A stretch of DNA of 64,000 nucleotides from [Candidatus Thermochlorobacteriaceae] bacterium GBChlB (GTDB lineage: Bacteria; Bacteroidota; Chlorobiia; Chlorobiales; Thermochlorobacteraceae). Below are positions 51,022-64,000 of the stretch, piece after piece (the stretch's first letter is position 1; each line of letters begins with the position of its first letter). The notes under the pieces were generated by a model, which saw only the letters and a list, made by a program, of their open reading frames with translations, ran no database searches and was not told the DNA's origin. The position numbers were made by a program, and so were the translations under genes. Location: assembly GCA_000724175.1 (NCBI GenBank), contig JPGV01000031.1:1-64000 (forward strand). Reading direction: 5' to 3'.

Positions 51022-54000
51022 ATGTCAAACCATCTCCAGACTGAAATTGAGCGTTCCCTATCCGCCCCACCCATCGTCGAAAAGGACGATGCGCCTGCCC
51101 ATGCGCTTGAAAACTACATCTGTGTTGTTTCCGTCCCTTCTGAAAAGCTCGCGTATCGCTCCCCAAAAATTTTGGACGATGAACTTCAAGGGTGGTTGAA
51201 GCCCCTTCAAAAAGCGAAATCGATTGATGAAAAACTCGCCCTTGTTTGCGACGCGCTTTTCGAGACGGCAGCATTGTCGTTTTCTGCCGCCGCGTTGTTC
51301 GGAGAAAATTATTCAGTGCGGCGGGCGCATTTAAGGGTGGTCGAGGGCGCGCAAGGCGGCGGAATTGAGCGTGCGTTCCGAGAGCATATTGCCGCGCCTG
51401 CCGATGCTCGGCGAGTGTTTTACGACTATCTGCTTCAAGAAAAAAAATATCGGCTGCAAAACATCTACTGCTACGAAACGGCGGAGCTGTGCGCCGCACT
51501 GGAACGACAAGGCATCGCCTTCAGCCAACCGTTTCCAAACGCGTCCTCACCCGTAGAGTTGATTCAGGAACCTGTCTTGCCGAAGCGAAAAGCGGCATCA
51601 AAAAAAATCCCGTTGGAAATTTTATTTGCAGCCTACAATCAAAAGAGCAGAGGGAACAAGCCGTTCGAGTTCGGCATTGTGTTGCCAATGTTCGGCGGAG
51701 ATGGAAAAATCATGGGCGCGATATGCTCTGGCGAAAGCTTACGCAATACGGTTGAGTCGCAAGAGCAAGTGTTGGAGTTGCAGCGTGTCTTGGATAGGTT
51801 TGTTAAACAAGCAAGTCTAAGTTTAGAAGAAACACTGCACAGCGCTGCGGCGAAATCGGTGTCCCCAAAAGCTGATAAGAACGCTGTTGAACCCCCGCCC
51901 GTCAATGAGCCGCCACCGACAACGGTCGAGCCAAAAACAGCGCTTCAACAGGCGCTGGAACTGTCGCGCAAAATTTCGGAGCGACAAACAATTACCGAAA
52001 AAATAGACCTCTTGGGTCAAGCGACCATTGTCATCGGCAACGTCAAAAGCTGCGCCATCGCGCTCTACAGTCAGGACGACGAGATTGAATACCATAAACT
52101 CTACACGCGCACAGGCACAGAAAGCGTCAAGTCTGAAATTCTCAATCCCGACTTTGCCTACAGCCGATACCTGTCCGAAGCCCTTGTGGCGTGCAAGGGA
52201 TTTCGAGCAGAGCAAAGCTACTGCTGCAAAATCGAGCAATTAGAAAAGTTACAAACCGCAATTGAGTCGGGCATGGAAGCGCCCCGCGAGTTCTATTCCG
52301 AAACAGAGAGCAACAACGCGCTGAAAAAACTACATGGCAGCGATGACATCGTGCTTATCACGCCGCTGAAAATCAGCAACACACTGTTAGGATACATTGC
52401 CATCGACGGCGACAGTATCTCGCTCGGCGAGAACACTGAAAACGACTTGGCGGACAGGTTAAGGCTGATTGGCATCTTAGTAAACGAGATTTCTGGACAA
52501 CTTTTGCAGGCAAAACTGCGGGCAGAAAGCAATCGATACGCGCTCCAAACAGAAACACTGAGGGAACTGCTCGATGTTCTCTTTACGACCAGCGCCGCAA
52601 TTCAAGCGGCAAAAACATTGGACGAAAAATTTCAACTGGCGGCGCAAACGATTGTCAACGAGTTGGGATTCACGTCCGCAACGCTGGTAACCTACAACGA
52701 AAGCGGCGTCATCTTGCTCTCCGCCGTCGCCGTTCATCTGGAGGCGGAAGACCAAAATCTCTCAAAACGCTTGACAACGCGATACGCGGTTGGGCGGCAT
52801 GTGCAGCACGACACGCTCAACATGGTCTTCTCAACAAAGTTCTCCGTTGGTCATGGCTATGCATTTTCAAGCCGAGACATTCGAAAACTGCGGTCGAGCA
52901 ACACGAAAATAGACGAGGGCAACCTCGGTCAAAAAAATCTCAATGTGTTTCTTTCTGGAAAAACAGATGTTGGATTGTTGTTCCCGCTCTACGATGAATC
53001 CAAGCGACTGGCGGGATTCATTCGGCTGGGCAAATGGATGCTGCCTAACGACGAGCGCGTAACGGCAGAGTTTATGGAACGGCTGCGCATCATTGCGCTC
53101 TTTGCGGAACGACTCTCGCAAGACTACTCGCTGTCGAGATTGGAAGCAGAGCGCACCAGTGAAATGGCTGAGAAACAGCGCTTCAATAAAGCACTCGCGT
53201 TGCTTTTCGAGGCGGGGACAAAAATCTCACAATCGACATCTGTTCAAGAAAAGCTGCGCCTCTGCTGCAAAGCCTTGGTTGAAACGACGGATTTGGATTT
53301 TGTAGGGGTTTGCCTTTACGACTTAAATGGAGAGGTGCGTCACTCCGACCACTCCGAGAAAGCAGGCATTGATGAAAAACTCGCGCAAGTGGTGAGCGAC
53401 GGCTACGCCGTCGGCAGAAAAATTAACACGCGCGTTTACGACATTCTGTTCGAGCACGACGAGTTCAAACTTCATCCGTTCAACGTGTATTGCGCTGATT
53501 TGCGTCAATTCAAACGATTTATCGTCGCTAACGCCATTCAAGTCATTGGCACGACAGCCAAGGGCGTGGTCGACGTGAATGACAACGACATGAGCGAAGT
53601 CAATGGCATGAAAAACCTTGAGCGCTACATAGAAACGAGAGGGACGCCAGAAAACGACTACTATGTGCTGGCTGTGCCTATACGCATTGCCGACCGAACC
53701 GCCGCGCCCATCAAAGGGTTTATCTCGCTCGGAAACTTTACCGAGTGCAAGACACCCTCCGATGTCCTCAATCAACTCGTCGCTATTGATTTGTTCATCA
53801 GCGTCGTTGAGTCGGACATCACCAACTTTTTTCTCACTCAAACGCTGGCGCAGGAATCGCAGCAACTGTTCCAGCGCAGTCTGTTTATTCAAAAGTTATT
53901 GGAATTGGACGTCAAGCTCTCCCAACCAATTTCACTGCACGATAAAATTCGAATGGTGTGCGAAAGTTCCGTCGAGCAATCGAGTTTCCGATATGTGCTT

Positions 54001-55662
54001 GCTGCACTGATTGATAAAAACAAGCAAGTCTTGTCGGACTTCCACTACATGGAACACCCGGAACTCATTGCTGTTTCTGACGACCAGCCAAGCAAGGGTA
54101 TTGCGCTACTTATCCAAAGTTTCTCGCAAGGTGTGGCGATTTACGAACCCGCGTTTATTGAACTCTCGCTTGCCGAAAAAAATCGGGTCAAGGACGCGGG
54201 CAACGCCTATTGCTACGACTTGCGCTGGCTCATTCGTGAAATGCAGCAGCGTGGCATCGCTGTTCCGGAGGAAAAGAAAATTTTGCCGCCGACCAACACC
54301 GACGCCGAGCCGCTCACAGCAGAGCAAGCATTGCGCGTCTTCTGGGGCGGCGCGACCCGCGAGGACGTCTTGGTGAATTTCATCATTCCCTTAACGGGCG
54401 CGCAAGGTCGGCTCTTGGGCTTCATCTCGCTTGGCAGGATGCTGGCGCGGGTGAAAAAATCCTATCAAGAAGTCTTGGACGATGTGCGCTTGATTGAACT
54501 CATCGCGGGCAGCCTTGCGTCACATCTTGAAAATTTAGAACTCAACCAAAATCTCTCTGCATCGGAAGCCAAATTCAGAAACGTCGTCGAGAACGTCGGC
54601 TACGGATTCGTCATCAGCGATAAAGACGGGCGTATTGAATACGTGAACGCGTTTCTCAAACGCATTTTGGTGCGCGGCGACGACGCCATTATCGGGCATC
54701 TCTTAGAAGACCTCTCGCATCCTGAAACCCTGCTACAAGCCAAACGGCAACGCTCCATCGTCTATTCCGGACGCACGCCTTCCGAAGAAGAACTGCTGCT
54801 CTTGACCAGCAGCGGAGAAGCGATCCCGTTTCAAGTCTCCGCCTCGCCGCAGCTTGTGTTGCACAACGATGGCGAAGTAACCGTCGACGGCTCATTCAGC
54901 GTCTTGGTCGACCTGCGCAAGCAGCGCGAAATCGAGCGGCAAAAAATCGAGCTCGAGACCATTCGAAACAATTTCTTTGCGATGGTCGTCCATGATATGA
55001 AAGTGCCGCTTTCGGCGATATACGGATACAGCGAAATGCTGCGCGACGCCGACCCAAGCAAAATGGAGCCCGACCATTTCAAAAAAATCATGGGACAGAT
55101 TCACCTCTCGTCGTCCAACATCACAAGTTTGGTACAAGAAATTCTCGATTTCTCGAAATACGAAGCGAAGATGGTCAAGCTCAATCGCTCGCTCAGCAGT
55201 TTGCAACTCTGCCTTGAGCTCGTTTTGGAGCAAAATCAATTCGACTTGGGCGCAAAAGGCATGACAGCTCGAAAAGAAATTGAACCTGTCGACTTTACAT
55301 TTTACTTTGACTTCGATAAAATCGTGCGTGTCATTAGCAACCTTGTGAGCAACGCCATCAAGTTTTCGCATAAGGGGTCGGAAATCGTCGCATCGTTGGA
55401 GCGCTTTGAACATAGAGGAACTCCCTTTGCCAAACTGACTATCCGCGACAACGGCGAGGGCATCGCGCCCGAAGAGGTCGGTTACATTTTCGATGCATAT
55501 CGCCAAGCGAACTCGAAGCATGGCTCTCGCGGCATAGGCTTGGGACTCTCGATTGCAAAACAGGTGGTGGAACTGCACGGCGGAAAAATTTGGGCGGAAT
55601 CAAAACTCGGCGAAGGCACGGCAATTACTTTCGCGCTTCCGATGATGGCGCAACCCGACTGA
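51022..55662 (+). CDS. Large soluble histidine kinase with five GAF-like modules
   Basis: A 1546-residue cytoplasmic kinase with no signal or membrane helix. Five diverged sensor modules begin near residues 67, 322, 530, 739 and 969, each with a recognisable xEKxxLxxxA helix start and a closing P(L/I/M)-x6-LxGxIxLG motif. Two of them also carry a YCYxxxxLxxxxQxxGI insertion. A PAS domain follows near 1184 (NVVENVGYGFVISDKDGRI), then HisKA with His1324 (AMVVHDMKVPLSAI) and HATPase with N box LVSNAIKFSHKG, G1 IRDNGEGIAP and G2 GIGLGLSIAKQVVELHGG. No regulator is adjacent. It probably integrates several small ligands. Confidence 0.92.
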   Translation: MSNHLQTEIERSLSAPPIVEKDDAPAHALENYICVVSVPSEKLAYRSPKILDDELQGWLKPLQKAKSIDEKLALVCDALFETAALSFSAAALFGENYSVRRAHLRVVEGAQGGGIERAFREHIAAPADARRVFYDYLLQEKKYRLQNIYCYETAELCAALERQGIAFSQPFPNASSPVELIQEPVLPKRKAASKKIPLEILFAAYNQKSRGNKPFEFGIVLPMFGGDGKIMGAICSGESLRNTVESQEQVLELQRVLDRFVKQASLSLEETLHSAAAKSVSPKADKNAVEPPPVNEPPPTTVEPKTALQQALELSRKISERQTITEKIDLLGQATIVIGNVKSCAIALYSQDDEIEYHKLYTRTGTESVKSEILNPDFAYSRYLSEALVACKGFRAEQSYCCKIEQLEKLQTAIESGMEAPREFYSETESNNALKKLHGSDDIVLITPLKISNTLLGYIAIDGDSISLGENTENDLADRLRLIGILVNEISGQLLQAKLRAESNRYALQTETLRELLDVLFTTSAAIQAAKTLDEKFQLAAQTIVNELGFTSATLVTYNESGVILLSAVAVHLEAEDQNLSKRLTTRYAVGRHVQHDTLNMVFSTKFSVGHGYAFSSRDIRKLRSSNTKIDEGNLGQKNLNVFLSGKTDVGLLFPLYDESKRLAGFIRLGKWMLPNDERVTAEFMERLRIIALFAERLSQDYSLSRLEAERTSEMAEKQRFNKALALLFEAGTKISQSTSVQEKLRLCCKALVETTDLDFVGVCLYDLNGEVRHSDHSEKAGIDEKLAQVVSDGYAVGRKINTRVYDILFEHDEFKLHPFNVYCADLRQFKRFIVANAIQVIGTTAKGVVDVNDNDMSEVNGMKNLERYIETRGTPENDYYVLAVPIRIADRTAAPIKGFISLGNFTECKTPSDVLNQLVAIDLFISVVESDITNFFLTQTLAQESQQLFQRSLFIQKLLELDVKLSQPISLHDKIRMVCESSVEQSSFRYVLAALIDKNKQVLSDFHYMEHPELIAVSDDQPSKGIALLIQSFSQGVAIYEPAFIELSLAEKNRVKDAGNAYCYDLRWLIREMQQRGIAVPEEKKILPPTNTDAEPLTAEQALRVFWGGATREDVLVNFIIPLTGAQGRLLGFISLGRMLARVKKSYQEVLDDVRLIELIAGSLASHLENLELNQNLSASEAKFRNVVENVGYGFVISDKDGRIEYVNAFLKRILVRGDDAIIGHLLEDLSHPETLLQAKRQRSIVYSGRTPSEEELLLLTSSGEAIPFQVSASPQLVLHNDGEVTVDGSFSVLVDLRKQREIERQKIELETIRNNFFAMVVHDMKVPLSAIYGYSEMLRDADPSKMEPDHFKKIMGQIHLSSSNITSLVQEILDFSKYEAKMVKLNRSLSSLQLCLELVLEQNQFDLGAKGMTARKEIEPVDFTFYFDFDKIVRVISNLVSNAIKFSHKGSEIVASLERFEHRGTPFAKLTIRDNGEGIAPEEVGYIFDAYRQANSKHGSRGIGLGLSIAKQVVELHGGKIWAESKLGEGTAITFALPMMAQPD

Positions 55663-55768: not shown

Positions 55769-56542
55769 CTAATCAATCACGACTTCCAGCATATCGTAGC
55801 CAACGCGGATGTGGTCGGGTAAGTCAGCTTCGAGCACAGCATGTTTTATCTCATGACTCATGTGGATTAAAATCGCGCGGCGCGGCTTGATACGGGCGAT
55901 GTGCGCCAGTGTTTCCGAAAGGCACGCGTGCGTTGGATGCTCGGTATAGCGTAAGCAGTCAATCGCAAGAACCTCGAGCCCTTGCAGGCGCTCAACCGAG
56001 TGGTCGGGCAACGTTTTGCAATCAGTAAGGTAGGCGAAATTTCCGATTCGAAATCCGTAGATGGTGATCTTCCCGTGTCCGACATCTATGGGCGTTACAT
56101 CGACGCTTGCGCCGTTTTTTCGAATCGTGAATGTGTCAGTAACAACCTTCATTGTTAGCGCCGGCAATCCCCAGTCAAGATTGCGCTCGCCAAACGCATA
56201 GCCAAAACGGCGCATCACTTCGGGTTCGCACTGCGGCGATGTGTAAATATCCATTGCTGCACGCTGCGTGTTGGTGAAAGCACGAATGTCGTCGAGTCCG
56301 AAAAGATGGTCAAAGTGATGGTGTGTCAGGAGAACGGCGTCGATGCGCTTGATGGCGCTGCGAAGGACTTGTTGGCGAAAATCAATTGACGTGTCGATGA
56401 GCAGCGATAAGCCGCCGGTCTCAACGAGTGCCGACGTGCGGAGGCGTTTATCGCGCGGGTCGGAGGAGCGGCACACATCACACTCACAAAGCGGAACAGG
56501 AATGCCTTGCGAGGTGCCGGTGCCTAAAAACGTGATTTTCAT
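55769..56542 (-). CDS. MBL-fold hydrolase, PhnP-like
   Basis: A 257-residue metallo-beta-lactamase fold protein. It opens with ITFLGTGTSQGIPVPLCECDVC, carries an N-terminal cysteine pair, and the metal motif LTHHHFDHLFGLDDIRAF, as in phosphoribosyl cyclic phosphodiesterases (PhnP). The last histidine region is ILIHMSHEIKHA. It probably cleaves a cyclic phosphate or related ester. It is the distal gene of a four-gene minus-strand set with 9-13 bp gaps. Confidence 0.9.
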   Translation of the reverse strand: MKITFLGTGTSQGIPVPLCECDVCRSSDPRDKRLRTSALVETGGLSLLIDTSIDFRQQVLRSAIKRIDAVLLTHHHFDHLFGLDDIRAFTNTQRAAMDIYTSPQCEPEVMRRFGYAFGERNLDWGLPALTMKVVTDTFTIRKNGASVDVTPIDVGHGKITIYGFRIGNFAYLTDCKTLPDHSVERLQGLEVLAIDCLRYTEHPTHACLSETLAHIARIKPRRAILIHMSHEIKHAVLEADLPDHIRVGYDMLEVVID

Positions 56543-56550
56543 CGGTGAAG

Positions 56551-56817
56551 CTATGCGTTCTGTTTCTCTGAAACTTCGTCGTCAATCAATTTGCGAACCT
56601 GCGGTGTTACGAAAACATTCCCGACGCCGATGCGTCCGAGTGTGCGGGCGATGGTCGTGATTTTGCCTTCAATCGGAAGGAACTTATTGACGACCAAGAC
56701 GCGCTCTTCATGCACGCGGCAATCGCCGCCTTGGAAATTTCCTTTCTCGTAACGAACCCGAAATCCCAATTTCTTTGCGGTCTCTTCAAGTTCCTGTAAG
56801 ATGTCCTGCTTTCTCAT
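56551..56817 (-). CDS. Small hypothetical protein (88 aa)
   Basis: An 88-residue protein starting MRKQDILQELEETAKKLGF, with a GxFxGGxCRVxE-type motif (GNFQGGDCRVHEER) and a C-terminal RKLIDDEV helix. No membrane or signal. It lies 8 bp from the PhnP-like gene and 13 bp after the OMP gene, so it belongs to that transcript. Not recognised; the conserved-looking GGDCRV could bind metal. Confidence 0.7.
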   Translation of the reverse strand: MRKQDILQELEETAKKLGFRVRYEKGNFQGGDCRVHEERVLVVNKFLPIEGKITTIARTLGRIGVGNVFVTPQVRKLIDDEVSEKQNA

Positions 56818-56830
56818 CGGTGTGGTAAAA

Positions 56831-57571
56831 TTAAAAAGTAATTCCCGCCGTTAGGGTATGGGCGCGGAAAAGATAGTTGTATTGAGTCGTCGAAAAACTG
56901 GATGTGGTATATCGGAATCGATAGGTAAACGCCATGCCGAATGTGCCGAAAAACTGCGGCAAGTGAAACGTCGCGTCAGTAATGACGCCGCTCACGAGAC
57001 CAGTTACCGGACTGAACCCTTGCGTTCCAAAGGCAATGAACGCTTCGGCTTTGGCAACAAAGAGTGAGGCGCGTGTGCTGTAAGCAAGCCCCACACCCGC
57101 GCCGATGCCAAGCGAGCCGAGACTGATGTTGTCGCTGCCACGCTCCTGACGGGTGCTGACGAAAAGCAAATCCGCGACCACCGAGAGCGGAATAATTGGA
57201 CGCAACACATTCGGCGCAGGAGGCCCGAAGGCGATATCGACATCGAATTTCGCGCCGCCGCTTCCAAACGTAACCGCTTCGGGAAACCCGTCGATATTGC
57301 CAACAGAGTAGTCGAAGTAGAGCAGCGTGTTGTCTTGGCGCAAAATCGCCGACAAGAGCACACGAGAGACATTGAACGGCGTGGCAAACGTGTTCGAGGC
57401 GAGCGGCGAAAAATTGCCGCCCGGCGACAGCCCAACTTCAAAACTGCGCAAGGAGAGTTCACGGAAATTTTGACGCACATCGGCAGAACTTGCTTCACCA
57501 ATCACCTGCGCCGACGCTGACATGGCAACTGCAACAGAAACAAAGACGATGACAAAATGAACCCGATTCAT
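56831..57571 (-). CDS. Predicted outer-membrane beta-barrel protein
   Basis: A 246-residue exported protein. Signal peptide MNRVHFVIVFVSVAVAMSASAQ is followed by alternating amphipathic strands, with a clear long central region (PLSVVADLLFVSTRQ, NISLGSLGIGAGVGLAYS) and a C-terminal GITF ending in phenylalanine, the classic barrel C terminus. No family was recognised. It is the second gene of the minus-strand cluster. Confidence 0.8.
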   Translation of the reverse strand: MNRVHFVIVFVSVAVAMSASAQVIGEASSADVRQNFRELSLRSFEVGLSPGGNFSPLASNTFATPFNVSRVLLSAILRQDNTLLYFDYSVGNIDGFPEAVTFGSGGAKFDVDIAFGPPAPNVLRPIIPLSVVADLLFVSTRQERGSDNISLGSLGIGAGVGLAYSTRASLFVAKAEAFIAFGTQGFSPVTGLVSGVITDATFHLPQFFGTFGMAFTYRFRYTTSSFSTTQYNYLFRAHTLTAGITF

Positions 57572-57602
57572 GAGTAATGCTGTGTTAAAAAGTCAAAAAA
57601 CC

Positions 57603-58370
57603 TTATGTGCGATGCACCTTCAAGCCCGCCTGAGCAACGGGGCGCACGATAAGGTCGTCAATATCGACATGCGGCGGACGCGACGCAATGAACAAAATGC
57701 ACTCTGCGATGTCTTTCGCCGTCAGCGGCATCATACCTTGATAAACGCGCTTAGCTCGGTCGTCATCGCCACGAAAACGCACCCGACTAAACTCCGTTTC
57801 AACGAGTCCGGGCGAAATGCAACTGGCGCGAATGTTGGTGCCTAAAAGCTCTAACCGCAGTGCTTCGGTAATTGCCCGCACGCCAAACTTCGAGGCGCAA
57901 TACACGCTGCCGCCCTCGTAAGGCATATACCCTGCAACGCTGCCCAAATTGATGATGTGTCCCTCGTTTCTCGGCAGCATGTCTTTGAGCGCAAACCGCG
58001 ACAGCCGCAGAAGCCCGAAAACATTGGTCTCGAAGACCTCTCGCATATCTGACTCGGAAACATCGGCGACTTTATCGGTGCCGCGTGCCAAGCCCGCATT
58101 GTTGATGAGAATGTCAATTTTGCCGAACCGAGCGACCGCATCGGAAATAAAACTCTCGCAACTCTTTTCGTCGGTAACATCGAGCGCAAGCGCCAGCGTG
58201 GTTACTGCATAGTCTCTGGCAAGCGTTTTCGACACCTCTTGTAATTTTTCTATGCGCCTGGCGCCAAGAACAAGCGTGCTGCCGTGTGCAGCAAATTCGG
58301 CGGCGGTGGCAAGTCCAATGCCCGCACTCGCGCCAGTAATAAGAACAATTTTATCCTTGAGTTTGGTCAT
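57603..58370 (-). CDS. Short-chain dehydrogenase/reductase (YdfG-like)
   Basis: A 255-residue classical SDR. The nucleotide motif is ITGASAGIGLATA, NNAG appears in ILINNAGLARG, the active-site Ser-Tyr-Lys set is in LGSVAGYMPYEGGSVYCASKFG and the catalytic tyrosine-lysine pair is intact. Such enzymes reduce serine, malonic semialdehyde or related substrates. It opens a four-gene minus-strand cluster. A TATATTCG -10-like element lies 18 bases upstream. Confidence 0.92.
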   Translation of the reverse strand: MTKLKDKIVLITGASAGIGLATAAEFAAHGSTLVLGARRIEKLQEVSKTLARDYAVTTLALALDVTDEKSCESFISDAVARFGKIDILINNAGLARGTDKVADVSESDMREVFETNVFGLLRLSRFALKDMLPRNEGHIINLGSVAGYMPYEGGSVYCASKFGVRAITEALRLELLGTNIRASCISPGLVETEFSRVRFRGDDDRAKRVYQGMMPLTAKDIAECILFIASRPPHVDIDDLIVRPVAQAGLKVHRT

Positions 58371-58517: not shown

Positions 58518-59873
58518 ATGGCTAAAAAGTTTGACGACTCTTTCGAGGACTACTACGCTGCACTCGGCGTTTTTCCGAGTGCGTCGCCCGATGAAATTCG
58601 TCAGGCTTATGTCGAGCGCATCAAAGACGTTCACCCCGACCGCTTTCAACAGGCCTCCGATGCTGAACGGCGCGACGTTGAAGAAACTTCTCGTTTGCTC
58701 AATCGGGCAAAAGACACGCTGCTCAACCCGACCCAGCGACAACGCTACGACGAGCGCTATCGCGCCCGCTACTCCAACGAATCAAATGAATTGGATAACC
58801 AAGACGATGTTGAGACAAAAAGACACTTTTACCGAAAAGACCGACTCGGTGCTTTTTCAGGGGCGCGGGGCTTTGGGTTTCTCGTGATTGCAATTTCAAC
58901 GATTTACATTCTTGGCGCATCGGTGGGTCTGGTCGGACGAGCGTTGATGACGAAAGGCGTCGTGAAAATCGCTGAAGCAAAACAAACGATCGAGTTAAGC
59001 CTGCCAAGCTACGAGTGGAGAACAGCGTTTCCTGTGGAAGGCTTCGGCATTACAGAAGGAAGCGGCGCGGCAACGCTCTTTTCATTGACCCAACGGACGA
59101 TTTACAGGAGAACATTGCCGCAGAACGATGAAGCGCCGTTCGCAGCCAAGGGCAGCGTTGAAAAATTCGTGCTTGCAAAAGACAAACTTGCCGTCGTAAC
59201 TGATTCATCGATTGTTGTCTATTCGCTCGATGGACGCGCGCTTGCAGCCTTGAATGGGCATCGCGGAAAAATCACATGCGTGGCGTTTTCGCCTGATGGT
59301 GTGCATCTCTGTTCGGCAAGTGAAGACCGCACGATAAAAATCTGGAATGTTCGAAACAGAGCGGCAGAACGCACCTTTGCGGCAAGCAACAAAGTTGTCG
59401 AGTCCGTCGCCTTCACGCCCGACGGGATTCATGTGGCGTTCAATGACGACCGATGGCTGAAGCTCTGGTCTTGGCGAGACGGCAGAGTGCGTCAGTTAGC
59501 ACAACATCGGGATAAGATTCTCCATGTGGCATGCAGCAACGAGTGGGCAGCGTCGGCAAGTCTGGGCGGTGAGTTGAAACAAACGCATCGCATAACAGGC
59601 GCGGTGAAAAATGTGGCGCAGGAATCTGGCGTCATCACAGCACTTGCATACAGTCCCGATGGACAATGGCTGGCATCGAGCAACGCCGACGGCAGAGCGC
59701 GGCTCTACACAGCTTCAAGTGCAAGGCTGGCACAAACCATTGAGGCGCATCACGGCAAAGTCTCATCAATTCAATTTTCAGACGCGGGCGACCGTCTCTA
59801 CACGACAGGCGCGGATAGCGCGATAAAATCTTGGAAACTGCCTAACGATACGATAAAGACCGTCATCAACTAA
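58518..59873 (+). CDS. Membrane-anchored J-domain / WD40 propeller protein (1)
   Basis: A 451-residue protein. Residues 8-85 are a DnaJ domain with the HPD motif at 39-41 (IKDVHPDRF). A basic stretch (KRHFYRKDR) leads to one membrane helix (about 118-141), and the rest is a seven-bladed WD40-like propeller with units such as CVAFSPDGVHLCSASEDRTI and SIQFSDAGDRLYTTGADSAI. The charge pattern puts the J domain in the cytoplasm and the propeller outside. The start is ATG 58518, because the upstream frame overlaps the SDR gene. It is followed after 13 bp by the dehydrogenase. Known for DnaJ domains: it activates a Hsp70; the propeller role is inferred. Confidence 0.9.
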   Translation: MAKKFDDSFEDYYAALGVFPSASPDEIRQAYVERIKDVHPDRFQQASDAERRDVEETSRLLNRAKDTLLNPTQRQRYDERYRARYSNESNELDNQDDVETKRHFYRKDRLGAFSGARGFGFLVIAISTIYILGASVGLVGRALMTKGVVKIAEAKQTIELSLPSYEWRTAFPVEGFGITEGSGAATLFSLTQRTIYRRTLPQNDEAPFAAKGSVEKFVLAKDKLAVVTDSSIVVYSLDGRALAALNGHRGKITCVAFSPDGVHLCSASEDRTIKIWNVRNRAAERTFAASNKVVESVAFTPDGIHVAFNDDRWLKLWSWRDGRVRQLAQHRDKILHVACSNEWAASASLGGELKQTHRITGAVKNVAQESGVITALAYSPDGQWLASSNADGRARLYTASSARLAQTIEAHHGKVSSIQFSDAGDRLYTTGADSAIKSWKLPNDTIKTVIN

Positions 59874-59886
59874 GCAACTAAACCCT

Positions 59887-60882
59887 ATGCACATTACCGT
59901 TTTTGATACGCATAGCTTCGAGCGCGATTACCTCTTGCGCGCCGCCGGAACAGCGCACAAGCTCAACTTCTTGGAAGTGCAACTGAACCTGCAAACTGCC
60001 GACCTTGCACGCGGCGCAGACGCAATCTCGATTTTCGTCAACGACGACGCTTCTGCGCCTGTGCTGGAAAAATTGCATGGTCGTGGCGTCAAGTTCGTTG
60101 CGCTTCGTTCTGCTGGATTCAACCACATTGACTTAGACAAAGTAAAAGCGTTAGGAATGTGCGCGGCGAATGTGCCAGCATATTCGCCTTACGCGGTCGC
60201 TGAACACACAGTCGCCTTGATGCTTGCGTTGAATCGAAAACTCACGCGGGCGCACAACCGCGTGCGCGAAGCAAATTTTTCGCTCAACGGCTTGGTGGGG
60301 TTTGATATGAACGGCAAAACGGCGGGTATTGTTGGCACTGGAAAAATCGGCGCAGTGGTTGCTAAAATCTTACACGGCTTTGGCTGCAATCTGCTCGCCG
60401 TTGATGCGTATCCCAACGCCGCACTGGAAAAAGATTATGGACTTCGTTACGTCTCGATTGAAACGCTCTGCCGCGAGTCCGATATTATCACGCTGCACGC
60501 GCCGCTCACGCCAAGCACCAAATACCTCATCAACGCGCAGAACATCGCCTTGATGAAACACGGCGTCATGCTCATCAACACCAGCAGAGGCGGACTGATT
60601 AAAACCGTCGATGCCATCGATGCCTTGAAGACAGGCAAAATCGGTTACTTAGGCTTAGACGTCTATGAAGAGGAAAAAGGCTTATTTTTCTACGACCGCT
60701 CCGACTTAATTTTGCAAGACGAAATGCTCGCGCGATTGATGAGCTTTCCAAACGTGTTGATTACAAGCCATCAGGCGTTCCTGACCGACACGGCGCTACA
60801 AAACATTGCTGACATCACATTTCAAAACATCAACGCGTGGGCGAGTGGCGAGAAAGCAGAATATGAACTGACAACGACTTAA
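59887..60882 (+). CDS. D-2-hydroxyacid dehydrogenase (D-lactate dehydrogenase-like)
   Basis: A 331-residue NAD-dependent dehydrogenase of the D-lactate family. The nucleotide motif is TAGIVGTGKIGAVVAKIL, the catalytic Arg, Glu and His are in NTSRGGLIKT, LGLDVYEEEKG and TSHQAFLTDTA, and the N-terminal FNHIDLDKVK is typical of LdhA. It reduces pyruvate or a similar 2-oxoacid. It lies between the two J-domain/WD40 genes with 13- and 10-bp gaps, so it belongs to the same operon, with no obvious reason by known function. Confidence 0.94.
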   Translation: MHITVFDTHSFERDYLLRAAGTAHKLNFLEVQLNLQTADLARGADAISIFVNDDASAPVLEKLHGRGVKFVALRSAGFNHIDLDKVKALGMCAANVPAYSPYAVAEHTVALMLALNRKLTRAHNRVREANFSLNGLVGFDMNGKTAGIVGTGKIGAVVAKILHGFGCNLLAVDAYPNAALEKDYGLRYVSIETLCRESDIITLHAPLTPSTKYLINAQNIALMKHGVMLINTSRGGLIKTVDAIDALKTGKIGYLGLDVYEEEKGLFFYDRSDLILQDEMLARLMSFPNVLITSHQAFLTDTALQNIADITFQNINAWASGEKAEYELTTT

Positions 60883-60892
60883 TTTTTGAACA

Positions 60893-62257
60893 ATGACTGG
60901 GCGACAAAATTTCATCGACCTCTATGCCGAGCTGGGACTGACGCCGCGTGCGACCGCGGAAGAAATTCGCCGTGCCTACATGGAACAAATTAAAGACGTT
61001 CACCCCGATAAGTTTCAGAATGCGTCGCCGCGAGAGCGCGAAAGGGCAGAGCGCAAAACGCAACTGCTCAACGAAGCCAAAGACATCTTGCTTGACGACG
61101 ACAAACGCCGTGACTACGATTTTCTCTACAAGCAACGCCTCGCTGAAGCCGTTGATGTTGCGGCAAAAGTCGGGTTCGATGGGCAGCGCTATGATGCCTA
61201 CATGTCCAATGCAGAGCGATTTCGACAAATGGCGGAGCGAGACTCATCGTCGCGTGCCAAACCGTTTATCTTCATTATGGTCGCGCTTATGACGGGCGTT
61301 ACGCTGCTGTGGCGGTTCGTCAATCCCGAAGACATTGGAAAACCCGCGCCGCCAAAGGAAGTTCCGACCATAACCGAACCGCAAGTTGTGTATCAAGCAA
61401 GTGGTGCTGTGCTTGGAATCACGCTGTCGAAAAACGGAACGCTGCTTGCCGCCGTCGATAAAATCGGAGTGGATGTATGGCGTATCGACGCGCCCGATAA
61501 AAAAACGACGCTCAACGAAACAAACGCGTTCTCGATTGCAAGCGTGGGTGAGAGCGTCGCCGTCGGAACAAAAGACGGCAAGGCTAAATTGTTTCGTTTG
61601 GAAAGCGACGGCGGCGCAACGCTCATCAGAACGCTCGATGCGCATCAATCGGCGATATCCAGCGTCTCGTTCAGCGCGGACGGCAAATGGCTCCTGACGG
61701 CAAGTTGGGACAAAACTGCGAAAATTTGGAACGCCGAGAGCGGAGACCTCTTGCGAACCCGTATGGGCATTGCGTTTCCGATTTATGCTGCCGCGTTTGA
61801 TAAAGACGCCCGAAGTGTTGGCTTCACCAACGACCAACAATCAATGCTCTGGACATGGCGCGACGGCACATTGAAAAACCTCACGCTACATCGCAAACGA
61901 ATCTTGGCAATGTCGGTCAGTTCGACCGATTGGGTGCTGTCGGCAGGCGAGGATAGAATTCTCAAACAAGTGCATATCCCCACAACAACGACGCGCGCTA
62001 CCGATGCAGAACCGTCAGTTTGTTTAGCGGTTGCCTACAGCGCGGACGGACAACTCTTTGCAAGCGCAGGTGCAGACGGCGTCGTGAGGGTATATGCGAG
62101 CAATTCGTGCCGAAAGTTGGACGTGATGCAAGCCCATCAAGGAAAAGCCACAAGTGTCGTGTTTTCGCCCGACGGTCGGCGACTATACAGCGCGGGCGCG
62201 GACGGTGCGATTAAAGCGTGGGATATGTCAAAATATGCACCGTTGCAAACGCCGTGA
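60893..62257 (+). CDS. Membrane-anchored J-domain / WD40 propeller protein (2)
   Basis: A 454-residue paralogue of the first J-domain protein. The DnaJ domain is at residues 7-80 with HPD at 37-39 (IKDVHPDKF); one membrane helix (about 124-141, FIFIMVALMTGVTLLWRF) follows a basic stretch; a seven-bladed WD40-like propeller follows, with units such as SVSFSADGKWLLTASWDKTA and SVVFSPDGRRLYSAGADGAI. The two proteins share the domain order but differ in most residues, so the duplication is old or under different selection. It lies ten bp after the dehydrogenase and 76 bp before the M48 protease gene. Confidence 0.9.
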   Translation: MTGRQNFIDLYAELGLTPRATAEEIRRAYMEQIKDVHPDKFQNASPRERERAERKTQLLNEAKDILLDDDKRRDYDFLYKQRLAEAVDVAAKVGFDGQRYDAYMSNAERFRQMAERDSSSRAKPFIFIMVALMTGVTLLWRFVNPEDIGKPAPPKEVPTITEPQVVYQASGAVLGITLSKNGTLLAAVDKIGVDVWRIDAPDKKTTLNETNAFSIASVGESVAVGTKDGKAKLFRLESDGGATLIRTLDAHQSAISSVSFSADGKWLLTASWDKTAKIWNAESGDLLRTRMGIAFPIYAAAFDKDARSVGFTNDQQSMLWTWRDGTLKNLTLHRKRILAMSVSSTDWVLSAGEDRILKQVHIPTTTTRATDAEPSVCLAVAYSADGQLFASAGADGVVRVYASNSCRKLDVMQAHQGKATSVVFSPDGRRLYSAGADGAIKAWDMSKYAPLQTP

Positions 62258-62333
62258 AGCAGCGCACAGCCAACTAAACCAGATTGCGTATGTCGAGCAG
62301 ATACTTAAATCCCTAAATCAAATCAAATAAAAG

Positions 62334-63590
62334 ATGACGAACAAAGCATTTACTTTCCTTGCGCTCGCCGCGCTCTGCTTTCTGACGACAACAGACGCCT
62401 CGGCGCAGCAAGACATTTTCACCAAGCGCGACAACAGCCAAGTGCGCGACGGCGCAGGGTCATACTTCAAACTGCTGGCGGTGCTTCCGGCGAACCTCAA
62501 ACTGAAATTGATTGAAAAGTCGAACCGTTGGGCGAAGGTGGAGTTGCCCGATAAACAGAAAGGGTGGATTGCCGAAAACTGCCTCGAGGAAAAACCCACA
62601 ACAAAACAAATGGGCAAAGACCTGAGCAAAACGTGGAGTTCTTCCAAAGCCTCGCGCGCGGGCGTAGCGGCTGCGGTCAAAGGGTTCGCCAAACGGTTCA
62701 GTAAAGCGTCGGACGGCAGCATCGAGGTTATCGTCGAGCAGCGCATTGCCGATTTTTCCGATGGCGATTACCAAGCCTTTAAACGCGAACTAAACTCAAA
62801 GCGCGCCAAAGTAAATTCTAATATCACCCTTTCTTCGCTCGGCCTCGATTCTCCGTATTACGATGCGCGGCTAAGCGAAGTTGAAATCGGTGCGGGCGTT
62901 GCGGCTAAAATTGCAACGGCGTTTGGCTTGGTCGAAGACCCGACGCTCAATCGATATGTCAATATGATTGCCGCCGCATTGGTAGAAAATACGAATTACT
63001 ACGATTGGGATTTTGGTGTGTTCATTTTGAACGACGAGAGCATCAACGGCTTTGCATGCCCGGGCGGGTACATTTTCATTACGCTCGGCGCGATTAAAAA
63101 TTGCAGCGATGAATCGGAACTGGCTGCAATTATCGGGCATGAAATCGCGCACATTATTCGCCGACACGGACTACAAGAAGTCACCAAACGCCTGACGAAA
63201 ATCAAAGCCGAGGGCGCGTTTGCCGAACTCGAGGAAGAAATTGGAGATGAAAAAGACGAAGACGAAAAGGAGTTGGAAGACATTGCCGCGCAATCTTACG
63301 AGCGCATCGTCCGCAAACGTCTTATCGCTTACGAATTTGAGGCAGACAAAATCGGCAGTGTATTGTGCGCAATAGCGGGCTACGACCCTTACGGCATGGT
63401 GAGAATCAGCGAAACGGTCGCCCGCGTTCAAGCCACGATGCCAGTGCCGAAAGAGGAATTTAACTCGGAATACTTCGCGCCAGATGATGCAAAAGAGCGC
63501 ATCAAACAAATTAAGTCGTTTGTTGAAAAAAATTATTCTGCAACGTCAAGCGGAAGATTGAAAGAGCGGTACGAGCGCACAACAAGATAA
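62334..63590 (+). CDS. Secreted M48 metalloprotease with SH3 domain
   Basis: A 418-residue exported protease. A signal peptide (about 1-25, ending DASAQ) is followed by a bacterial SH3 domain (VRDGAGSYFKLLAVL to KGWIAENCLE, about 30-85). The M48 catalytic region has the zinc motif HEIAH at 269-273 and the further ligand in EFEAD near 334-338. A charged EEEIGDEKDEDEKELED stretch lies between. It resembles periplasmic BepA-like quality-control proteases, with an added SH3. It probably shares the operon with the J-domain genes, but the 76-bp gap leaves room for its own promoter. Confidence 0.92.
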   Translation: MTNKAFTFLALAALCFLTTTDASAQQDIFTKRDNSQVRDGAGSYFKLLAVLPANLKLKLIEKSNRWAKVELPDKQKGWIAENCLEEKPTTKQMGKDLSKTWSSSKASRAGVAAAVKGFAKRFSKASDGSIEVIVEQRIADFSDGDYQAFKRELNSKRAKVNSNITLSSLGLDSPYYDARLSEVEIGAGVAAKIATAFGLVEDPTLNRYVNMIAAALVENTNYYDWDFGVFILNDESINGFACPGGYIFITLGAIKNCSDESELAAIIGHEIAHIIRRHGLQEVTKRLTKIKAEGAFAELEEEIGDEKDEDEKELEDIAAQSYERIVRKRLIAYEFEADKIGSVLCAIAGYDPYGMVRISETVARVQATMPVPKEEFNSEYFAPDDAKERIKQIKSFVEKNYSATSSGRLKERYERTTR

Positions 63591-63596
63591 CGTCGC

Positions 63597-64000
63597 TTAC
63601 TTCATCAGAATCATTTTTCGGGTTTCCGCGCCGAAGTCGGTTTGGAGACGATAGAGGTAAATGCCGCTCGACAAATCATAGTCGGCGGCATTAAAGAAAA
63701 ATGTGTAACGCCCGGCGGGCTGAAAGCCGCGTTTGACACGGGCGACTTCTGTGCCGAGCGTATTATAGACATAAAGCTCGACCGTAGCGCCTTCGGCGAG
63801 TTCGTAGCTGATGGTGGTTGATGGATTGAACGGGTTGGGCGTATTTTGAAACAAACGAAACGACGGTTTTGTCTCTGCAAGTCCAATTTTAATTGCGCCG
63901 GTGTATGTCGCCGAGCGTCCCGCTGTATTCTTCCGCAAGCGATAAAACACCACTTTGCCAAGTTCCCCTGCATTGCGGTCAAAAAAGCGATAGAAGCCCT
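63597..64000 (-). CDS. C-terminal part of a T9SS-type sorting domain protein (partial)
   Basis: The 3' end of a minus-strand gene that runs off the right edge; the frame is open to base 64000. The visible ~134 residues show the end of a fibronectin-like unit (FYRFFDRNAGELGKVVFYRL) followed by a type A sorting domain, with NTPNPFNPSTTISYELAEG, YNTLGTEVARV, PAGRYTFFFN and a closing SGIYLYRLQTDFG. Such domains direct export through the type IX secretion system, which Bacteroidetes and some Chlorobi have. The cargo is outside this window. It converges with the M48 gene. Confidence 0.93.
   Translation of the reverse strand, partial: GFYRFFDRNAGELGKVVFYRLRKNTAGRSATYTGAIKIGLAETKPSFRLFQNTPNPFNPSTTISYELAEGATVELYVYNTLGTEVARVKRGFQPAGRYTFFFNAADYDLSSGIYLYRLQTDFGAETRKMILMK

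Follow-up and report, generated by a model that had tools for sequence, protein, structure and literature searches.

What might a bacterial protein do that joins a DnaJ-type J domain to a WD40 propeller through a membrane helix, and do its gene neighbours share in that function? The question is raised by four open reading frames (ORFs) in a 64,000-nucleotide stretch of the genome of [Candidatus Thermochlorobacteriaceae] bacterium GBChlB (assembly GCA_000724175.1, contig JPGV01000031.1, positions 1 to 64,000; hereafter the window). Two of them, the paralogues A and B, encode J-propeller proteins; they bracket a dehydrogenase gene, ldhA, and are followed by a gene for an M48 protease. Here we find that the J-transmembrane (TM)-WD40 protein is a real, lineage-restricted J-domain architecture. 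We give a probability of about 0.55 to the reading that it is a membrane-anchored class C J protein, recruiting Hsp70 to a place at the inner membrane that is set by a periplasmic propeller.

A sequence-only reading of this DNA had proposed two paralogous genes for a DnaJ domain with HPD motif, a helix and a seven-bladed WD40 propeller, and this is borne out by Pfam, the HPD motif, hydropathy and AlphaFold. The Pfam DnaJ matches lie above the cut-off (E=1.3e-12 for A and 1.6e-14 for B), and the WD40 matches reach an E of about 2e-32 in both. The HPD motif is present in all 15 family members examined, as is a hydrophobic segment between J domain and propeller, with a mean Kyte-Doolittle value of 2.1-2.6 over 19 aa; hydropathy gave no second TM candidate in any of the 15. 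Structure prediction of both proteins, which the sequence-only reading had proposed as a check and which was built only on proteins from the window and related loci, placed a helix where the TM segment was predicted, between the J domain and a stem of low order, and gave a propeller whose 28 strands form seven four-stranded blades in A and B alike, with a mean predicted local distance difference test score (pLDDT) of 81.6 for B and 80.1 for A. In a Foldseek comparison, the B model matched, among others, the WD40 domain of PkwA (5yzv) and the designed seven-bladed propellers 7bie and 7big. No G/F region, zinc finger or DnaJ C-terminal domains were found in A or B, whose best 25 Pfam matches belong to J and propeller families only; DnaJ equivalog models match them at the N-terminal J region only, with scores far under the cut-off. 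By domain content, A and B would be class C J-domain proteins, predicted to stimulate the ATPase of an Hsp70.

On which side of the membrane each domain lies had been read from a basic stretch before each helix. The numbers of lysine and arginine in the 20 residues before and after the helix are 5/2 in B and 6/4 in A (3/2 and 2/3 in two A orthologues); the positive-inside pattern is clear in B and in most single-copy homologues, and weak in A. WD40 domains are often cytosolic. This, together with the weak bias in A, would fit a cytoplasmic propeller, the helix being membrane-associated or re-entrant and the protein forming a J-WD40 scaffold tethered to the inner face of the membrane. We consider this arrangement improbable in view of the single, strongly hydrophobic segment kept throughout the family and the charge bias of the B-type proteins. 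The propeller probably lies outside the inner membrane. A cytoplasmic J domain and a periplasmic propeller are plausible because B shows the charge bias, Hsp70 is a cytoplasmic protein and there is a precedent, namely bacterial Ser/Thr kinases that have a cytoplasmic catalytic domain, one TM helix and a predicted periplasmic WD40 array (PMC11032199).

Conservation is uneven along the protein. Among B and the single-copy homologues, mean identity is highest in the J domain (0.65); it is lower in the linker (0.44) and in the propeller, both in its first blades (0.29) and in the remainder (0.50). The strong conservation of the J domain is what selection on Hsp70 binding would be expected to produce. 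Between A and B, identity is 0.51 in the J domain, 0.33 and 0.15 in two parts of the propeller and 0.14 in the linker; that the J domain is best shared would fit a common output, Hsp70, and different partners. A propeller patch (TRMGIAFPIY and FTND.Q, residues about 289-316) is conserved in most B-type proteins and may be a binding site. In the tree, the A proteins form a fully supported clade of their own, which dates the duplication to at least the split between the genus of the window (g1) and its sister genus (g2; genomes G001, G004 and G006); its deeper placement is unsure, since several single-copy proteins are long branches.

The search of relatives that had been suggested for this architecture found it conserved: full or near-full-length homologues are present in nine of nine genomes of the window's family, as well as in G010, where the match is cut by the contig end, and G012, so that two sister families of Chlorobiales are represented. 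The relatives search did not find it in family f4 (49 genomes) or in G009, and no other full-length match came from a sample of 297 genomes drawn from the phylum or from one of 199 genomes of Planctomycetota, to which a Scalindua genome belongs. Family f4 probably corresponds to Chlorobiaceae, and that of the window to the Thermochlorobacter/Chloroherpetonaceae group; a split of the order Chlorobiales has been published (PMC9318685). Independent J-WD40 fusions elsewhere were considered and rejected, the WD40 matches from f4 and Planctomycetota having no J domain in the stretches examined, although rare cases could escape these samples. A viral or plasmid origin was likewise set aside (no relative among viral contigs, no plasmid match covering 80%), as was a role in anti-phage defence, for which the PADLOC match is partial and driven by WD40 only. 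The literature searched held no description of a J-TM-WD40 protein, which is weak evidence, as the main survey of prokaryotic J-protein architectures was not covered.

The narrow distribution and the high conservation of the J domain are also what one would see if the propeller were a scaffold for one membrane complex and the J domain brought Hsp70 there to fold or assemble its cytoplasmic subunits, making the protein an assembly factor and not a sensor. WD40 propellers are usually scaffolds, which counts for this alternative. We nevertheless regard it as doubtful, as no complex is indicated. The light-harvesting protein FMO is an unlikely client, its gene being present in G009 and G011, both of which lack the J-propeller protein, and a role in FMO or photosystem assembly was rejected on the same ground.

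Which Hsp70 would be recruited? The genome encodes DnaK and HscA, and we regard DnaK as the most likely partner because HscA has its own J protein, an HscB-like protein also encoded in the genome. A second Hsp70 gene is found in 12 of 12 Chlorobiales genomes outside f4 and in none of the 49 f4 genomes, a split that is almost that of the J-propeller protein. An Hsp70 dedicated to the J-propeller protein was considered and rejected: the second Hsp70 scores 720 bits against the HscA model TIGR01991 (cut-off 708.55), which together with the HscB-like protein makes it most likely the Fe-S chaperone HscA. The split may reflect a single phylogenetic event, and it is broken by G009, which has the second Hsp70 without a J-propeller protein. 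The genome encodes a further J-domain protein of 264 aa (L121:4101-4895, minus strand, contig C7 of G000) with an N-terminal J domain that reads QIKQWHPDK and a hydrophobic C-terminal end, and several relatives have J-domain ORFs of similar length. As context only, a published mat metatranscriptome reports several orthologues of dnaK whose diel patterns are opposite in some taxa (PMC11788075).

Taken together, the reading that we prefer would work as follows. The N-terminal J domain would stimulate Hsp70, most likely DnaK, in the cytoplasm; a single signal-anchor helix would cross the inner membrane; and the C-terminal propeller would bind a specific envelope partner in the periplasm, so that Hsp70 would act on its clients there, at the cytoplasmic side of the membrane. 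In g1 and g2, two such copies share a block with ldhA and the protease gene, neither of which the core function would need. Several points weigh against this reading. The client, the partner and the stimulation of Hsp70 are what we infer, and the orientation draws on the positive-inside rule, with its weak signal in A. In addition, helix II of the J domain reads IK.VHPD, compared with LAMQYHPD in the DnaJ of the same genome, and this departure from canonical DnaJ means that the Hsp70 partner might not be DnaK.

Turning to the neighbours, the four ORFs, in the order A-ldhA-B-M48, are separated by gaps of 13, 10 and 76 nt. No terminator-like site was found in the three gaps, and consensus promoters are no commoner than expected by chance. 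The D-2-hydroxyacid dehydrogenase noted between A and B is indeed one, and can be specified as an LdhA-type D-lactate dehydrogenase by its full-length similarity to fermentative D-lactate dehydrogenase, the best PDB match (E=4e-110); it is probably a metabolic passenger. A secreted SH3-M48 protease had also been recognised downstream, in agreement with a signal-peptide-like N terminus, the HEIAH motif and a Pfam M48 match above the cut-off; its solved relatives by sequence are the M48 peptidase 3c37 and BepA.

In g1 and g2 the block is truly inherited as a unit, because gene order and strand are kept in G001, G004 and G006 while the flanks share nothing with the window: in the g2 stretches (17-19 kb), only these four ORFs match any ORF of the window (E 1e-5). 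Elsewhere, in g3 (a genus with four genomes), G003, G010 and G012, there is one J-propeller gene without ldhA or the protease gene adjoining. An SH3-M48 orthologue was not found in any of the four g3 genomes or in G010, and in G003 and G012 it lies on a different contig from the J-propeller gene; LdhA orthologues, 69-71% identical, are on other contigs in three g3 genomes (G002, G007 and G008). The protease and LdhA are dispensable for the core function, since the single-copy protein is kept without them.

These data bear on the proposal, made in the sequence-only reading, that the genes form one transmembrane unit for quality control or stress signalling, with the propeller as reader of the envelope state, the J domain as recruiter of Hsp70 and the protease as the enzyme that degrades misfolded envelope proteins. 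The conserved block in g1 and g2, the lack of other ORFs shared between the g2 stretches and the window, the signal-peptide-like N terminus of the protease and its kinship to BepA all speak for such a unit. Against it, the protease is missing from every g3 genome that has the J-propeller protein and unlinked in G003 and G012, and no neighbour is common to the whole family. The block stands as a conserved group of genes in two genera, and the comparative evidence, which carries an obligate envelope quality-control operon no further than these, does not support one functional unit with the protease and the dehydrogenase across the family; we judge the proposal unlikely. We hold it to be quite unlikely that the protein is by itself a transmembrane receptor, in which a ligand or misfolded protein bound by the propeller on the periplasmic side would change how Hsp70 is recruited in the cytoplasm, and which in g1 and g2 would be paired with an envelope protease. 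If true, it would signal by a logic similar to that of receptor kinases, its output being chaperone activity.

In G010 and G012, the J-propeller gene lies near homologues of the window genes at 55769-58370, a position that may be ancestral. In three g3 genomes the J-propeller gene is directly preceded, on its own strand, by one that encodes a repetitive and possibly coiled-coil protein. In the window, a 1546-aa sensor-like protein with a histidine-kinase-like C-terminal region is encoded a few kb upstream of A (51022-55662, plus strand). The C-terminal part of another protein is encoded convergently with the protease gene (63597-63998, minus strand); its end is presumably like a type IX secretion system sorting domain.

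Table. Features of the four-gene block (window coordinates) and of related loci (locus coordinates).
Feature	Position	Strand	Basis or remark
Paralogue A, J domain-TM helix-seven-bladed WD40 propeller, 451 aa	58518..59873	+	Pfam, hydropathy, AlphaFold
J domain of A, HPD at residues 39-41	58548..58751	+	Pfam DnaJ, residues 11-78
Predicted TM helix of A, residues 121-139	58878..58934	+	Kyte-Doolittle 2.32; AlphaFold helix 118-144
WD40 propeller of A, 28 strands, residues 165-440	59010..59837	+	Pfam, AlphaFold
LdhA-type NAD-dependent D-lactate dehydrogenase, 331 aa	59887..60882	+	Pfam 2-Hacid_dh; PDB match
Paralogue B, J domain-TM helix-seven-bladed WD40 propeller, 454 aa	60893..62257	+	Pfam, relatives search, AlphaFold; more widely conserved copy
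J domain of B, HPD at residues 37-39	60917..61120	+	Pfam DnaJ, residues 9-76
Predicted TM helix of B, residues 123-142	61259..61318	+	Hydropathy; AlphaFold helix 123-142
WD40 propeller of B, 28 strands, residues 165-444	61385..62224	+	AlphaFold (pLDDT mostly near 90), Foldseek
Signal peptide-bacterial SH3-M48 metalloprotease, 418 aa	62334..63590	+	Pfam SH3_3 and Peptidase_M48; linked only in g1, g2
HEIAH zinc-binding motif (HExxH) of the protease	63138..63152	+	Read from sequence
Second Hsp70	L114:6645-8543 (G000, contig C20)	-	Above HscA equivalog cut-off, TIGR01991
Repetitive, possibly coiled-coil protein genes (g3)	L040:10731-11459, L042:14846-15541, L043:9091-9912	-	Upstream of J-propeller gene

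Membrane-anchored class C J proteins are known in bacteria (PMC8215388). DjlA, DjlB and DjlC of E. coli resemble A and B in having a J domain with HPD and a membrane anchor and in lacking the zinc finger and G/F region of DnaJ. To our knowledge, none of the three carries a WD40 propeller. Ftn2/ZipN of cyanobacteria and ARC6 of chloroplasts have an N-terminal J-like domain, one TM helix and a C-terminal domain across the membrane; unlike A and B, they have no WD40 propeller and have a role in FtsZ-based division. The Ser/Thr kinases of Planctomycetota and of the PkwA type share the plan of a cytoplasmic module, one TM helix and a predicted periplasmic WD40 domain (PMC11032199), with a kinase domain where A and B have a J domain. 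The protease of the block has the M48 domain and a sequence match in common with BepA-type proteases, and differs in having an SH3 domain and no BepA-like TPR match, scoring 89 bits against a BepA cut-off of 570.

In summary, a group of green photosynthetic bacteria has a J-domain architecture of which the papers searched held no description, and in which a domain beyond the inner membrane would influence where Hsp70 is recruited. Should the topology be right, the protein would allow one to test whether chaperone activity can be directed from the periplasm, and would be a simple system for studying how J proteins choose their place of action.
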